Part shown: positions 40,846 to 47,357 of the stretch, one piece after another
Numbering within the stretch: position 1 is the stretch's first letter
Layout of the letters: each line of letters begins with the position of its first letter
Assembly: GCA_010671905.1 (NCBI GenBank)
Contig: JAAHII010000001.1
Span: 3,658,001 to 3,722,000 of the forward strand
From: Leptolyngbya sp. SIOISBB
GTDB lineage: Bacteria > Cyanobacteriota > Cyanobacteriia > Phormidesmidales > Phormidesmidaceae
Length of the DNA stretch: 64,000 nucleotides
Reading direction: 5' to 3'
Translations under genes and position numbers: made by a program
The notes under the pieces: model-generated
The model's input: only the letters and a program-made list of their open reading frames with translations
Told to the model about the DNA's origin: nothing
Database searches by the model: none

Positions 40846-42711
40846 GTGTTCACAAATTCCATGACAACTTCTGTTACAGCACTTGATAACGTGACGACTC
40901 AACGAGTGACTGGTGGCTTTGCGCTCATCGATAGCCTTGAACGTCATGGGGTTGAGCATATTTTCGGGTATCCAGGTGGCGCCATTCTGCCCGTGTATGA
41001 CGAGCTATACAAAGCAGAAGAGCGAGGGGGCATTAGTCATATTTTGGTGCGGCACGAGCAGGGGGCTTCTCACGCGGCTGATGGCTATTCGCGGGCGACG
41101 GGTAAAGTCGGTGTCTGTTTTGGTACCTCGGGTCCCGGGGCGACGAACTTGGTGACGGGGATCGCGACGGCCGCGATGGACTCGATTCCCATGGTGGTGA
41201 TTACGGGGCAGGTTCCGCGTCCAGCGATCGGCACTGATGCCTTTCAAGAGACGGATATCTTTGGCATTACGCTTCCGATCGTGAAGCATTCCTACGTCGT
41301 GCGATCGCCCAAAGATATGGCCAAGGTGGTGGCCGAAGCATTTTACATTGCCCAAAGTGGGCGTCCTGGTCCTGTGCTCATCGACGTTCCCAAAGATGTG
41401 GGTCTAGAAGAGTTTGATTACATTCCCGTCGAGCCGGGAGATGTGCATCTCCCTGGTTTTAAGCCAACAGTGAAGGGCAATCCTCGGCAAATTGATCATG
41501 CCATTCGGCTGCTGCGCCGGGCCAAGCAGCCGCTACTTTATGTGGGTGGCGGTGCCATTACCGCTGGTGCTCATACTGAAATCAAGGAATTAGCGGAGTA
41601 CTTTGCCATTCCTGTGACGACGACGTTGATGGGTAAAGGGGCTTTTGACGAGCATCATCCACTAGCAGTCGGCATGTTGGGGATGCATGGTACGGCCTAT
41701 GCGAACTTTTCCGTGAGTGAATGTGATTTGTTGATTGCCGTCGGTGCGCGCTTTGACGATCGCGTGACCGGCAAGCTCGATGAGTTTGCCTCACGGGCTA
41801 AGGTGATTCACATCGACATTGACCCGGCAGAGGTGGGCAAAAATCGCATTCCTAACGTCCCCATCGTGGGCGATGTGCGCCGCGTTTTGCAAAATTTGCT
41901 CAAGCGCTTGCATGAAGCTAATAAGCCTGCTGATCCTGAACAAACTCGGGCCTGGCGCGATCGCATTCAGCGTTGGCGTGAAGATTACCCACTGGTTGTG
42001 CCGACCTATGACGACATGATTTCTCCTCAAGAGGTGATTGTGGAATTATGTCGCCAAGCACCCCAGGCTTACTACACTACGGATGTTGGTCAGCACCAAA
42101 TGTGGGCGGCACAGTTCCTCAAAAATGGTCCGCGTCGTTGGATCTCAAGCGCGGGGCTCGGCACCATGGGCTTTGGTATGCCCGCCGCGATGGGGGTGCA
42201 GGTGGCTCATCCTGATGAGGTGACGATTTGCATCAGCGGTGATGCTAGCTTCCAGATGAATCCTCAGGAGCTAGGAACCTTGGCGCAATACGGTATTAAT
42301 GTCAAAACCGTCATCATCAACAATGGCTGGCAAGGGATGGTCCGTCAGTGGCAGCAAGCTTTCTATGGGGAACGCTATTCATCCTCTAATATGCAGTCTG
42401 GGATGCCGGATTTTGAAATGTTGGCTAAAGCCTACGGTGTTAAAGGCATCGTGGTACAAGACAAAGCTGATTTGCAAACTGCGATCGCTGGAATGCTCGC
42501 CTACGATGGCCCGGTTTTGATGGATGTCCACGTGCGTAAAGATGAGAATTGTTACCCCATGGTGGCTCCGGGTAAAAGTAATGCCCAGATGCTAGGACTG
42601 CCGCAAAAATCTCCGGATGTGCAAACCATTGAGCTGATGTACTGCAGCAACTGTGGCGCTAAAAATCCCTCTAGTCACACTTTCTGCCCGGAGTGTGGCA
42701 CGAAGCTTTAG
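40846..42711 (+). CDS. ilvB: Acetolactate synthase large subunit with C-terminal zinc ribbon
   Basis: The 621-residue enzyme joins two pyruvates (or pyruvate and 2-oxobutyrate) in branched-chain amino-acid synthesis. The start is GTG 40846 or ATG 40861. The N-terminal TPP half has [18 protein letters not shown] and the TPP-binding region reads [20 protein letters not shown]...INN. After the usual end (about 595) it carries a C-terminal extension with two CxxC pairs: YCSNCGAKN...FCPECGTKL. The ribbon is unusual for the enzyme; I cannot tell whether cyanobacterial orthologues share it. No small subunit gene is adjacent. Confidence 0.95.
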
Positions 42712-42913: not shown

Positions 42914-43972
42914 TTACTCTCGCTCAGGATCGGCGGCTAACAGCTGCAACCGCACCATATGAGACAGAGGACTTTCAGGATCGCCGAGTTGGACTTCTAA
43001 GGTTTGGCTCGTCAAAGGTTCTAAATGGCTGAGGAGGCTACGGAGGTTGGGGGTACTCGCACCACTATCGACAAATACCCGTTCTGCGAGCTTGTTCATC
43101 TGGGTCCAAGCGCCATAGAGTTTGGCGGTGGCCTGTTCGAGCTGAGCCGCTTGCTTGACCAGATCAGCGGTGGCATTCAGACAGCCGATGCGGAGCGCTT
43201 CTTCTAGTGCTTGCTCCAAATCCAGATTGTCACTGTTGAGGGCTTGCACCTGCACCGCGGCTTCCAGATATTTGGCGAGGTAACGCGCTTCTGCCGTGAC
43301 CTGTTTGAGGGTATCGATGTCAGGATTCAGCATCACTTCCGTCTTCAGGGTTTCCTGATGGGGCGGCGGCAGCTTTTGCATTTCTTTGACTAACGGCGCG
43401 AGGTAGCGGGTAGGAATCGTATTATTCGCCGCTTTTTCCTTCAGTTCTGTGGGCAGCAAATCGGAACTCATCGCTGTCCATTCGTCCGAGATTTGACGCA
43501 CTTCACGACGGGTAATGTGTTCGCCCCGTTGAGCGGCATCGCTGACCAACTGCTGCACTTCTGGTGCTGATTGGGCGGTTTCGACAAAGGCGCGTTTGCT
43601 GAAGTTATTGACCGCTTGGGGCTCTAACATGCCTTCTTGGAGCAGGGTGTCGGCGCTGTCCGCCAATTCAATCAATGAGTAGGCCTGACTTTTGGTGATC
43701 TCGCGCTCGCGTAACCAATTCAAAAAGCCGGTACCGCGGCCATCGCCCCTCCGCTTTTCACGATCTCGCACGGTGCGCAAAATTCGGCCTCGCCAGATAT
43801 CGGTTTGCAGGTCAAAGCGATCGCACACTTGCCAAGCATTTTCGATCTGCTGCTGAAACTCATACTCTGATAAGTTTTCATCTTCTGGATTGGGCAACTG
43901 AAACGTCAAATCAGTACTGGGGTCAAGGGCCGCAGTGATTTGATCAGCAGCAGGGCGAGAGGCAGCGTTCAT
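42914..43972 (-). CDS. Hypothetical protein, possibly DNA-binding
   Basis: The 352-residue, entirely soluble and mostly helical protein has a central segment GFLNWLREREITKSQAYSLIELADSAD (about 82-108) that resembles the helix-turn-helix of ParB/KorB/DUF3102-like proteins. Acidic helices follow (about 195-300), and the tail is predicted as disordered. I do not recognise it further. Nothing nearby (chromosome partition or plasmid genes) supports a partition role, so DNA binding is a guess from the segment only. Confidence 0.7.
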   Translation of the reverse strand: MNAASRPAADQITAALDPSTDLTFQLPNPEDENLSEYEFQQQIENAWQVCDRFDLQTDIWRGRILRTVRDREKRRGDGRGTGFLNWLREREITKSQAYSLIELADSADTLLQEGMLEPQAVNNFSKRAFVETAQSAPEVQQLVSDAAQRGEHITRREVRQISDEWTAMSSDLLPTELKEKAANNTIPTRYLAPLVKEMQKLPPPHQETLKTEVMLNPDIDTLKQVTAEARYLAKYLEAAVQVQALNSDNLDLEQALEEALRIGCLNATADLVKQAAQLEQATAKLYGAWTQMNKLAERVFVDSGASTPNLRSLLSHLEPLTSQTLEVQLGDPESPLSHMVRLQLLAADPERE

Positions 43973-44828: not shown

Positions 44829-45530
44829 CTACAGAAAAACTGTGTAGTCTTCGCTGAGGTACAAAGCCCGCTCGGCTCTACGACGCCGTAATAGACCAGG
44901 TAAAAATTGACCGCCCGCATTGACCCAACGCAAAAACTCGTCCGCTGCCCCAGCAAAATCACCGGCGTTATGCTTCCGGAGCAGAGTGGAATCTCGATAG
45001 GCTCCTAAGCCGACGTTGAAGGCAAATGACACCATGGCTGAATATTGATCAGAGTTGGTCGCGATCGTCAGTCCTCGGGTGACCCCGGCCTCAAATAAAT
45101 CCAAATCTCGGCGCAAAATTTCATCTGCTTCCGCTTCGGTAATCACCATGCCTGGAACGACCTGGGGCGGCCCCGCCATCGAAGTGTGGCCATAACCAAT
45201 GGTCCAAATGCCGACCGAGTCTTGGTAGGCTTGCAGCTCTAAGCCTTCAAAACTTTTGACGATAATAATGCCATCTTCGTTGATCTGGCCGGTGGTCGGC
45301 GGTGGCGCGGGTGGATCAGGTATGGGTTCGGGTTCAGGAGCGCCCGTGCCCATCGAAAAGGTGATGGCCGTGGGGGCATCAGGACGCATCAGCCATTGCT
45401 CTAGCGCGGTGGCATCGGCAACTTGTTCTTGAGGATTAGTCGAAGAGGGATATTTGGTCAGGCGCGAAATCCAGTACCCACCCTCCATCAGATAAAACGC
45501 TTTGTCAGTTTCTTTAATCCAAGTGCCCAT
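44829..45530 (-). CDS. GH24 (T4-type) lysozyme with shared N-terminal domain
   Basis: The start at 45530 (ATGGGCACTTGG, with GGGGAG upstream) gives 233 residues. Residues 1-65 (MGTWIKETDKAFYLM...MGTGAPEPEP) match the N-terminus of the M15 protein directly upstream. The rest is a phage-type lysozyme: FEGLELQAYQDSVGIWTIGY holds the Glu, Asp and Thr in the same spacing as the T4 lysozyme triad. It should cleave the glycan strand of peptidoglycan. There is no signal peptide, so how it reaches the wall is unknown. Its start is 14 bases after the stop of the M15 gene. Confidence 0.9.
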   Translation of the reverse strand: MGTWIKETDKAFYLMEGGYWISRLTKYPSSTNPQEQVADATALEQWLMRPDAPTAITFSMGTGAPEPEPIPDPPAPPPTTGQINEDGIIIVKSFEGLELQAYQDSVGIWTIGYGHTSMAGPPQVVPGMVITEAEADEILRRDLDLFEAGVTRGLTIATNSDQYSAMVSFAFNVGLGAYRDSTLLRKHNAGDFAGAADEFLRWVNAGGQFLPGLLRRRRAERALYLSEDYTVFL

Positions 45531-45544
45531 GATCGATGTCTCCC

Positions 45545-47029
45545 CTAGTATCCGTATTCCCAACGGGCGCGATAGCCGCGCATATCGATGTGTGTAAAGA
45601 CGCTGGAACTCGCCAAGCCACCCCGGTTGCCCCACCACGGGTCTAAGTCAGCAAAAACGTCGAAAGGATGAACACCTGGCACCACAAAATCGAGGGCATC
45701 CCCCGTCATGTGGCGCGAATTCGAGGCACCGCCGACGGCTGCGTTGGTGACTGGATCGCGATACCAAGAATTGATCTGAATTGGACGATTGCCATATCGA
45801 CGGCGGATATCTTCCATGACTCGCGTCATATCAAGGATGTTGTAAATCACTGAGGCTGTCGTCGGTCGACGATAAAAGCCGGTGGCGGGCTCGGCATGTA
45901 GAGCTTCACCCCAGGTAAAGTTGCCGCGTTCGCCAAACTGATTGACAAAATAAATTGGGTCATTGGAATAATAGGTGCCATCGAACCCTGGAAATTGCAT
46001 GGGGATACCACGATCGCCGGCTTCTCCGCCGCCACCCGGATTTTCATCCTCGGGTTGGTTGCCGATTTCAGTGCCTGCGATCGCGATATCGGGGACAAAG
46101 CAATACCAGGTATTCCGTTTGTCTGGCCCTAAAAATGCGCCTTGTAATGCCACTCTCACATGCATATTCTCAGGCTGTGAATACGAATTGATTAAAAAGA
46201 CTGTCTTATTTTTGACGAACACCTTTTCATTTGCCGACAGTTCCGAAGATTGCACTGGCTGCACTTTAAAGAGTGTGTCACTCACCACTGCTAAAGTTTG
46301 GCGCTGTCCCAGAATGTTGATGTCTGGGGTGAAGGCATACCAGGTAGTGCGTTCATCCGGTCCCAGTGAGGCATCGGCCAATTCAATTTTGGTGTGGTTA
46401 CCAGCGGCGGGCTCAAAACTGATGAGTCTTAACTGCGTGCCGTTTTTGACAAACACTTTGGCAGAGTCAGGCAAATCAATTGACAGTTTCGGCTCAGTTT
46501 TGAACAAGGTGTCACTGGTCACGGTCAGCAGTACGCGAGTCAGCAACTCCACAGCAGGCACGAATACATACCAGCGAGTGGTTTGGCCATCGCCCAGCGT
46601 GGGCTCCAATAATTCAATTTCCCAATGGTTGCTGCCGACATCGGTGTAGAACTGAATGTCAAACTTCGTGTCGTTCTTGACCAATACCTTTTCTTTATCG
46701 GTGAGTTGACTCGAATCCTTAAGTGCCAGCTTGAAGTAAGTGTCGACCGTCGTCCGTATCTGCATGCCCTTGAATTCTGGAATGGGTGGCACCACGGGTG
46801 GCACGACTGGATCGTCTGGCTGGGGCTGGGGCTCGGGCTCACCTGTCCCCACTGAGATCGTCATGCGGGCTGGTTTGTCAGGGCGCTGAAACCAACTCTT
46901 CATCGTGGCAATGTTGGCGACTTCCTCTAGAGGATTCGTCGATGAAGGCTGTTTGAAAACCGCATCAATATAGTAGTTGTCGTCCATCAGGTAGATGGCT
47001 TTGTCGGTTTCCTTAATCCAGGTTCCCAT
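45545..47029 (-). CDS. M15-family peptidoglycan peptidase with three internal repeats and shared N-terminal domain
   Basis: The 494-residue product has three parts. Residues 1-65 (MGTWIKETDKAIYLMDDNYY...STNPLEEVA) are shared with the downstream lysozyme and precede a Pro-rich linker. Three copies of a ~75-residue module follow (about 90-320), each with a TxDTLFK start, an EKVFVKN strand and a TTWYxFxPDI end. The C-terminal M15_3 domain (about 345-494) has SRHMTGDALDF (HxxxxxxD) and FTHIDMRG (third zinc ligand), so it is likely an active D-Ala-D-Ala type peptidase. There is no signal peptide. GAGGAG precedes the ATG. Confidence 0.9.
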   Translation of the reverse strand: MGTWIKETDKAIYLMDDNYYIDAVFKQPSSTNPLEEVANIATMKSWFQRPDKPARMTISVGTGEPEPQPQPDDPVVPPVVPPIPEFKGMQIRTTVDTYFKLALKDSSQLTDKEKVLVKNDTKFDIQFYTDVGSNHWEIELLEPTLGDGQTTRWYVFVPAVELLTRVLLTVTSDTLFKTEPKLSIDLPDSAKVFVKNGTQLRLISFEPAAGNHTKIELADASLGPDERTTWYAFTPDINILGQRQTLAVVSDTLFKVQPVQSSELSANEKVFVKNKTVFLINSYSQPENMHVRVALQGAFLGPDKRNTWYCFVPDIAIAGTEIGNQPEDENPGGGGEAGDRGIPMQFPGFDGTYYSNDPIYFVNQFGERGNFTWGEALHAEPATGFYRRPTTASVIYNILDMTRVMEDIRRRYGNRPIQINSWYRDPVTNAAVGGASNSRHMTGDALDFVVPGVHPFDVFADLDPWWGNRGGLASSSVFTHIDMRGYRARWEYGY

Positions 47030-47357
47030 GATGGTCGTCTCCTCAATCAGGCGGTTTCACGCGATCGCCCTCTCAGGGCACTGGGTAACCCCGATTGCTT
47101 CCCAGCTGGTGAAACTGTTTCATTATGTCTCGACATGGCCAAAGCAGAACTCTGACATGTTCTGAAAATGCGATAAAGCTCGATCTCAGTCAGCAATACA
47201 CTCCTTGGTTGACTGGATGAAGGGACTGCTAGCCAAGGTTGTGACGTACTGGCGGCTGTCTCCTGGCATTCGTTTCAAGGTAGCGATTTAGGATCAGGGC
47301 GATCGCGATAACCTTTGCGAAACCGCTACAATCAACGGCGTTGAGCAAATCATTTTT
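47030..47357. promoter_or_regulatory. Divergent promoter region of the hydrolase operon and mtnP
   Basis: A 328-base spacer between the M15 gene (minus) and mtnP (plus). It must hold both promoters; I cannot mark exact elements. A GCGATCGC site is at about 47300. Confidence 0.35.

Follow-up and report, generated by a model that had tools for sequence, protein, structure and literature searches.

Modular endolysins of phages that infect diderm hosts consist of a binding domain and a catalytic domain and carry no signal peptide. In Anabaena, AmiC1 and AmiC2 appear among the changed exoproteome proteins of one study (PMC10936207). Two further papers report that some toxins associated with extracellular contractile injection systems (eCIS) are predicted wall hydrolases (PMC8213781), and that a thylakoid-anchored contractile injection system (tCIS) has two putative effectors with DUF4157 (PMC8894136). 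Here we describe two adjacent genes of Leptolyngbya sp. SIOISBB that encode an M15 peptidase and a GH24 lysozyme, located within a 64,000-nucleotide stretch of contig JAAHII010000001.1 (C1:3658001-3722000; the whole stretch is called the window). Both products begin with the same domain of about 60 residues (N-domain), a family that is absent from the libraries we searched and that many wall hydrolases of cyanobacteria have in common.

An earlier note on this DNA had proposed an M15 and GH24 gene pair, 14 bases apart, with a shared N-terminal domain and no signal peptides; the open reading frames (ORFs), the Pfam matches, the identity of the N-terminal 60-mers (55%) and a hydropathy scan all agree with that description (Table 1). 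The gene 1 product (P0001) matches Peptidase_M15_3 (PF08291) over residues 390-482 with 60.1 bits (curated cutoff 23.2), and the gene 2 product (P0002) matches Phage_lysozyme (PF00959) over residues 92-220 with 158.6 bits (curated cutoff 22.3). Catalytic signatures are intact in both: gene 1 retains SxHxxGxAxD with a downstream His, which we take to be the M15 zinc motif, and gene 2 retains the E-8-D-5-T spacing that we take, from T4 lysozyme, to be the GH24 signature. In NCBIfam the GH24 part (residues 82-229) comes closest to NF058676, at 170.2 bits and under its curated cutoff of 315. A purine-rich hexamer precedes each ATG, and these similar ribosome-binding sequences, with the same nine-base spacing and with the second overlapping the gene 1 stop codon, would fit coupled translation. 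The conserved ATG was used for gene 2; an alternative GTG start at 45638 gives a longer frame that overlaps the M15 gene.

Table 1. Features of the M15-GH24 gene pair (positions within the window)
Feature	Position	Strand	Basis
Gene 1, leaderless M15 peptidase, 494 aa (P0001)	45545..47029	-	Pfam match, intact SRHMTGDALD at 438, H480
N-terminal domain, gene 1 residues 1-60	46850..47029	-	4 copies in the same genome
SH3-like repeat 1, gene 1 residues 88-162	46544..46768	-	fold taken from repeat 2 model
SH3-like repeat 2, gene 1 residues 164-242	46304..46540	-	AlphaFold pLDDT 95
SH3-like repeat 3, gene 1 residues 245-322	46064..46297	-	fold taken from repeat 2 model
M15 catalytic region, gene 1 residues 369-494	45548..45925	-	Peptidase_M15_3 E 2.7e-16; structure match 1lbu E 1.9e-6
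Gene 2, leaderless GH24 lysozyme, 233 aa (P0002)	44829..45530	-	Pfam match, E95/D104/T110 spacing
N-terminal domain, gene 2 residues 1-60	45351..45530	-	AlphaFold model of residues 1-65, pLDDT 90.8
Pro-rich linker, gene 2 residues 61-81	45288..45350	-	sequence
GH24 catalytic domain, gene 2 residues 82-233	44832..45287	-	PF00959 E 1.1e-46; structure match 6et6 E 1.4e-36
Shine-Dalgarno-like GAGGAG, 9 nt before gene 1 ATG	47039..47044	-	sequence
Shine-Dalgarno-like GGGGAG, 9 nt before gene 2 ATG, one-base overlap with gene 1 stop	45540..45545	-	sequence

The likeness of the two N-domains is far beyond chance, since a search of the same genome with one 60-mer finds the other at E 5e-26. The search also returns two further copies, one heading another GH24 gene (C1:810517; locus L156) and one in a 90-aa ORF (C1:4773282). 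This last ORF (L157:5232-5501) consists of the N-domain and a short tail and may be a remnant of a hydrolase gene. No model covers the N-domain in Pfam, NCBIfam or PHROG among the carriers scanned, or in PADLOC for the two window proteins, in line with an undescribed domain; literature searches limited to open-licence papers found no paper on it. Its AlphaFold model, built from 54 alignment rows (pTM 0.74), comprises three strands, a helix and a strand. Fold searches gave no convincing relative (Foldseek best E 0.67 against the PDB and 0.08 against BFVD; VIA Z 4.2), a result that does not prove the fold new. We claim no kinship to pantothenate kinases, L,D-transpeptidases or S16; when PDB chains were searched with the N-domain profile, the top hit, ribosomal S16 at E 0.012, was taken as chance. 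Divergent copies of the N-domain are homologous to one another by profile-profile comparison (probability 99.3, E 3.7e-20).

To what is the domain attached? The fetched loci were searched with the N-domain only, so the catalytic outcome was not selected for. They yielded 123 distinct ORFs, which represent the fetched part of the profile matches with close relatives counted apart, and 109 of these contain a wall-lytic region: GH24 (63), M15 or M15-like (23), Amidase_3 (8), Amidase_2 (5), GH19-type (4), GH24 and M15 fused (3), M23-type (2) and phage-endolysin type (1). Classes were set by phmmer comparison to representatives (E 1e-4) rather than by Pfam one by one; the representatives exceed the Pfam cutoffs for GH24, M15_3, M23, Amidase_2 and Amidase_3. 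Some assignments are softer than others. The four GH19-type ORFs rest on a PHROG endolysin match plus a Pfam match below the cutoff, the phage-endolysin type (L125) on PHROG alone, and eight M15-like ORFs (L103/L098/L107/L115-type) on Peptidase_M74 matches of 17.8-19 bits in the four scanned (cutoff 25 bits). L154 and L155, which match no Pfam family, were placed with Amidase_3 because they resemble L118, and L110 was assigned to M23 on its likeness to the L159 protein. Leaving out the eight M74-like ORFs, L154, L155 and L125 brings the wall-lytic count to 98 of 123.

Six of the remaining 14 ORFs are cut by a contig end. Two consist of the domain only, two add just a short tail to it, two look like broken frames, one ends in a region without an identified family, and in the last the sequence gives way to N. 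Beyond the N the frame of this last ORF reads by eye like a penicillin-binding protein; we take this as an assembly or masking effect, although it is the only carrier with a possible link to an enzyme that builds the wall instead of cutting it. The expectation that the N-domain recurs only on wall-active or exported enzymes therefore stands for the 109 wall-lytic ORFs, with the other 14 truncated, broken, reduced to little but the domain, unidentified or interrupted by N. The three publicly annotated carriers are named only as amidases. Two arrangements are recorded as observations in their own right: in L154 (4527-5279) and L155 (5001-5747) the N-domain precedes a diverged Amidase_3-like region, between genes that look RodZ-like and argB-like by eye, and in L122 (2726-3221) two ORFs in tandem, 65 and 67 aa long, consist of the N-domain alone.

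Within the window's family, a profile of the four copies from the Leptolyngbya genome detects the N-domain in 61 of 63 genomes, including all 45 good ones; across the class it does so in 75 of 388. With a broader 32-row profile the count is 75 of 376 sampled class genomes, 55 of them within the family and 20 outside it. A draw across the phylum found the domain in 7 of 292 genomes, all within the class, and two peptide patterns run over the contigs of 84,980 species, a scan that would miss divergent copies, returned 68 loci, all titled as cyanobacteria. Scans of IMG/VR with three domain queries found no N-domain in virus data, and neither did two queries of 50,697 phage records, where the only rows, from three Vibrio phages (E 0.7), were taken as chance. 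One plasmid search was empty; the other gave three Leptolyngbya records whose genes are annotated as N-acetylmuramoyl-L-alanine amidase. A copy (BAY59415.1) is borne by a plasmid of Leptolyngbya boryana NIES-2135, which makes the N-domain accessible in a culture-collection strain. The near-universal presence within the family, together with conserved neighbors, speaks for vertical inheritance and for a household role rather than a weapon.

Adjacent M15 and GH24 carriers, separated by 2-31 nt, occur in seven related loci besides the window, and in three ORFs (one of them checked with Pfam) both enzymes form one polypeptide with two N-domain copies; the fused ORF of L095, for example, runs domain, five SH3-like repeats, M15, domain, GH24. 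Two other genomes of the family (L204, L206) encode a single protein that combines a jacalin lectin, GH24 and M15, with no N-domain and no clear leader. Taken together, the adjacent pairs, fused ORFs and jacalin-containing proteins make the joint cutting of glycan and peptide a recurrent theme. The M15-GH24 pair is nevertheless not the usual context of the N-domain: the carrier seen most often is a GH24 gene accompanied by an M16 peptidase gene (41 clustered loci; M16 by Pfam in L057 and L156), and the copy in L156, from the window's own genome, is of this kind. Presenting the locus as a two-gene system was thus too narrow, as the pair is one of many N-domain carriers.

A large WD40-repeat protein lies near six clustered loci (L098, L108, L112, L113, L116 and L152; WD40 by Pfam in L113, with an NTPase-like middle by eye). 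WD40-repeat genes are common in cyanobacteria and three of the six loci come from one genus; we claim no functional link. L112, L113 and L116 contain clusters of several wall hydrolases (M15, GH19-type, Amidase_2) with the large WD40-repeat protein and a gene that looks lipase-like by eye, and L151 and L152 hold further clusters of wall-hydrolase-like genes, mostly recognized by eye, part with the N-domain and part without.

Between its N-domain and catalytic region, gene 1 encodes three repeats in which Pfam finds no SH3 match. The model of repeat 2 is all-beta and resembles SH3 domains: in VIA, bacterial SH3 domains from NlpC/P60-type enzymes, endolysins, lysostaphin and ALE-1 score Z 7.1 to 5, a level that unrelated small folds can also reach, and Foldseek gives E 0.019 at best, with eukaryotic SH3 domains also listed. 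In relatives that lack the N-domain, the front position is taken by the jacalin lectin (L204, L206) or by SH3-like repeats, the latter in M15 relatives and, by eye, in three GH24 relatives.

Leaders were sought by hydropathy scan only, a crude measure with a small margin to the weaker of its positive controls, which were two amidases of the same genome with leaders (L234 and L235, the two read among its three PF01520 loci; hydropathy 1.62 and 1.90 within the first 40 residues). Neither window protein has a hydrophobic N-terminal segment: the 12-residue hydropathy mean stays at or below 0.31 (P0001) and 0.58 (P0002) in the first 60 residues. Among the 123 carriers, read from the Met at the domain start, none reaches 1.5 in the first 40 residues (maximum 1.44). 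All 123 have a Met at, or no more than 3 residues from, the start of the domain, a figure that is partly by construction, as the ORFs were begun at that Met, many frames are open upstream and longer starts are possible. Fifteen close M15 relatives without the domain, one of them from the same genome, likewise have no clear leader (hydropathy ≤1.48, that value from an upstream start); the starts used were those nearest the SH3-like repeats or earlier printed ones, and earlier starts are possible in L170, L171, L173 and L178. Five more distant M15 ORFs outside this set (L180, L181, L184, L185 and L186) do not reach 1.5 from their printed starts. Of 20 hand-picked GH24 ORFs without the domain, six have a strongly hydrophobic segment (≥1.8) and 14 do not, with L188 borderline at 1.52.

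Contractile systems were followed through matches to the sheath family PF04984, a single profile applied at E 1e-4 to genomes of which some are fragmentary. The window's genome has three matches (C1:3158928, 4547233 and 4549397), all at least 498 kb from the window. These two places, C1:3158928 and C1:4547233-4549696, may mark a contractile system of this organism. Across genomes, 37 of 52 in the family (all N-domain carriers) have a match compared with 114 of 312 class genomes outside it, where the assumption that no family genome stands among the unlisted negatives comes from list order. Taking all carriers together, the figures are 45 of 72 versus 106 of 292 other class genomes; this excess comes from the window's family and is gone outside it, where 8 of 20 carriers have a match (for the other 12, membership of the sheath sample is not shown one by one). 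The association cannot be separated from kinship because nearly all family genomes carry the N-domain, and sheath genes are evidently not needed for it, as 15 of the 52 family carriers, several with near-complete genomes, have no match. Clustering of neighboring genes recognized no injection-system, secretion or holin gene among the recurrent neighbors of carriers. Closeness to eCIS or tailocin loci, one of the signs of support named in the earlier note, is accordingly not seen: none was recognized beside the carriers, the sheath matches of this genome are distant, and 15 of 52 family carriers have no match.

We favor, at a probability of roughly 0.45, the reading that the pair encodes chromosomal, leaderless, endolysin-like wall hydrolases whose N-domain is a recognition or anchoring module for a common target. 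To judge from their domains and motifs, the GH24 enzyme would cut glycan strands and the M15 enzyme peptides, so that the sacculus would be taken apart, while the N-domain would hold different catalytic domains, via a Pro-rich linker, to the wall or to a wall-associated partner. Lacking a Sec signal, the enzymes would be cytoplasmic products that act once in the periplasm, which they might enter on membrane failure (sacrificial cell death, trichome breakage) or by some other route; the simplest reading, release when cells die, requires no new machinery. A recognition module is favored because lectin or SH3-like modules take the front place in relatives, because the catalytic domains joined to the N-domain attack different bonds, and because it is followed by a flexible Pro-rich linker. 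Also in favor of this explanation as a whole are the pairing and fusion of the two enzymes, the near-universal presence in the family, the 57-88% identity that the N-domain keeps among the seven related pairs and its absence from the viral GH24 relatives. Several observations weigh on the other side. The N-domain is slightly acidic (net charge -1 and -2), and many wall-binding modules are basic. It is less conserved than the catalytic region in 14 of 14 comparisons among the seven related pairs (57-88% versus 68-89% identity). With three SH3-like repeats already present, gene 1 has no obvious need of a further wall-binding module, and no function can be transferred to a predicted fold without a convincing relative. 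Finally, the Met at the domain start in every carrier, with no C-terminal copy seen, is also what a tag or packaging signal would predict.

That last point leads to the idea, which we consider doubtful, that the N-domain is a delivery tag, the signal of an unrecognized export or loading route for leaderless hydrolases. The position at the first Met in all 123 carriers without a leader, while two amidases of the same genome have one, fits such a tag, as do the many catalytic types that share the domain and the greater frequency of sheath matches in the family than in the rest of the class. Most relatives without the domain, however, show no clear leader either (all 15 M15 relatives and 14 of the 20 GH24 ORFs), sheath matches are missing from 15 of 52 family carriers and found in 8 of 20 outside it, and no secretion gene was recognized among recurrent neighbors. 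The three fused proteins also all keep an internal copy without a Met that still scores 74-84 bits, so the value of the domain does not depend on a terminal position; together with the leaderless relatives this weakens the tag proposed in the earlier note. A bolder version, in which the N-domain acts as a signal or docking element for a cyanobacterial pathway that brings folded, leaderless wall hydrolases of many catalytic types to the wall, or serves to co-load them for programmed self-lysis, seems to us a little less likely again. If a docking or export route existed, many cyanobacterial wall hydrolases would bypass Sec and Tat by an undescribed mechanism.

Other roles for the domain appear less probable still. 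As a pairing or assembly module, it would form homo- or hetero-oligomers that bring muramidase and peptidase together in one complex; adjacent genes with the same N-domain and the fusion of both enzymes in three ORFs point in this direction, and we nonetheless regard it as improbable, in that the commonest carrier adjoins an M16 rather than an M15 gene, and domain types track catalytic type. In the N-domain tree (FastTree, 60 columns), the nearest neighbor carries the same catalytic class in 99 of 121 cases, with unclassified counted as a class; the tree is weakly resolved and splits the M15 carriers (26 in all, largest nearly pure clade 13/14), so this count is its only use here. Lower on the scale we place a cytoplasmic control module that keeps the enzymes inactive or tethered in the cell until lysis: the conservation of the domain and the apparent synthesis of the enzymes in the cytoplasm would fit, but leaderless relatives apparently manage without it. 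Lowest of all, and very unlikely, are ordinary or domesticated prophage endolysins that retain a piece of phage lysis machinery. The catalytic parts do have a phage affinity, with matches of the GH24 protein to PHROG 7 endolysins (E 1.3e-60), of the M15 protein to PHROG 894 endolysins, and 26 viral GH24 relatives of which the best is 62% identical. Yet the N-domain is missing from all 26 as well as from the IMG/VR scans and the phage records, the neighbors have no phage matches, and the domain is near-universal in the family. With no lysis cassette, phage neighbors or N-domain-bearing viral relatives recognized in the sets searched, the refutation that the earlier note had foreseen on this side did not materialize.

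Among ten flanking ORFs scanned with Pfam, six match families of a housekeeping type (peptide deformylase, RNase PH, TPP enzyme, phosphorylase superfamily, GDSL lipase and trypsin/PDZ protease), one shows nothing beyond weak coiled-coil matches, three have no match and none matches a phage family. Inspection of the window ORF list by eye recognized no holin, phage or injection gene, although small unannotated holins are possible, and the earlier statement that none lies nearby stands for the neighbors scanned and the list so read. The PADLOC anti-phage defense models do not match P0001 or P0002. Two flanking genes are noted in passing: an acetolactate-synthase-type protein (40846-42711, +) with three TPP-enzyme domains and a C-terminal zinc ribbon above the Pfam cutoff, an unusual tail for such an enzyme, and a 352-aa ORF without a Pfam match (42914-43972, -) that adjoins the pair.

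These results raise the question of why the chromosomes of these cyanobacteria retain conserved genes for leaderless, endolysin-like enzymes, and by what path such enzymes get to the wall. Cell death, trichome breakage and cell-cell lysis in cyanobacteria are the processes on which an answer would bear. The catalytic parts, and the leaderless plan of binding plus catalysis, are already known. As far as our searches went, what is new is the N-domain family, which is confined to cyanobacteria and spread over many kinds of wall-lytic enzyme, and the pairing of a muramidase with a peptidase on the chromosome.

Set against described systems, the pair is closest in plan to the modular phage endolysins, with which it shares the lack of a leader, a small N-terminal domain, a linker and a C-terminal catalytic domain. 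It differs in being chromosomal and near-universal in its family, in having no holin or phage genes recognized nearby, in placing two complementary enzymes side by side, and in an N-domain that was not found in the viral sets searched. The best NCBIfam match of its GH24 part, NF058676, represents the endolysin BgtA of the Bartonella gene transfer agent, and covers the catalytic region only. The repeats of gene 1, which are predicted to be SH3-like, recall SH3b-bearing autolysins and lysostaphin-type hydrolases by fold resemblance only, whereas the shared N-domain has another predicted topology. Like the tCIS and eCIS effectors, the window proteins are leaderless and would need release or injection; unlike the two putative tCIS effectors, they have no DUF4157 match in Pfam, and the window has no sheath gene. 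AmiC1 and AmiC2 of Anabaena are likewise chromosomal cyanobacterial wall hydrolases; set beside cell-wall amidases, however, of which the two read among the three PF01520 loci in the window's genome have N-terminal leaders, the window enzymes stand apart as leaderless proteins.

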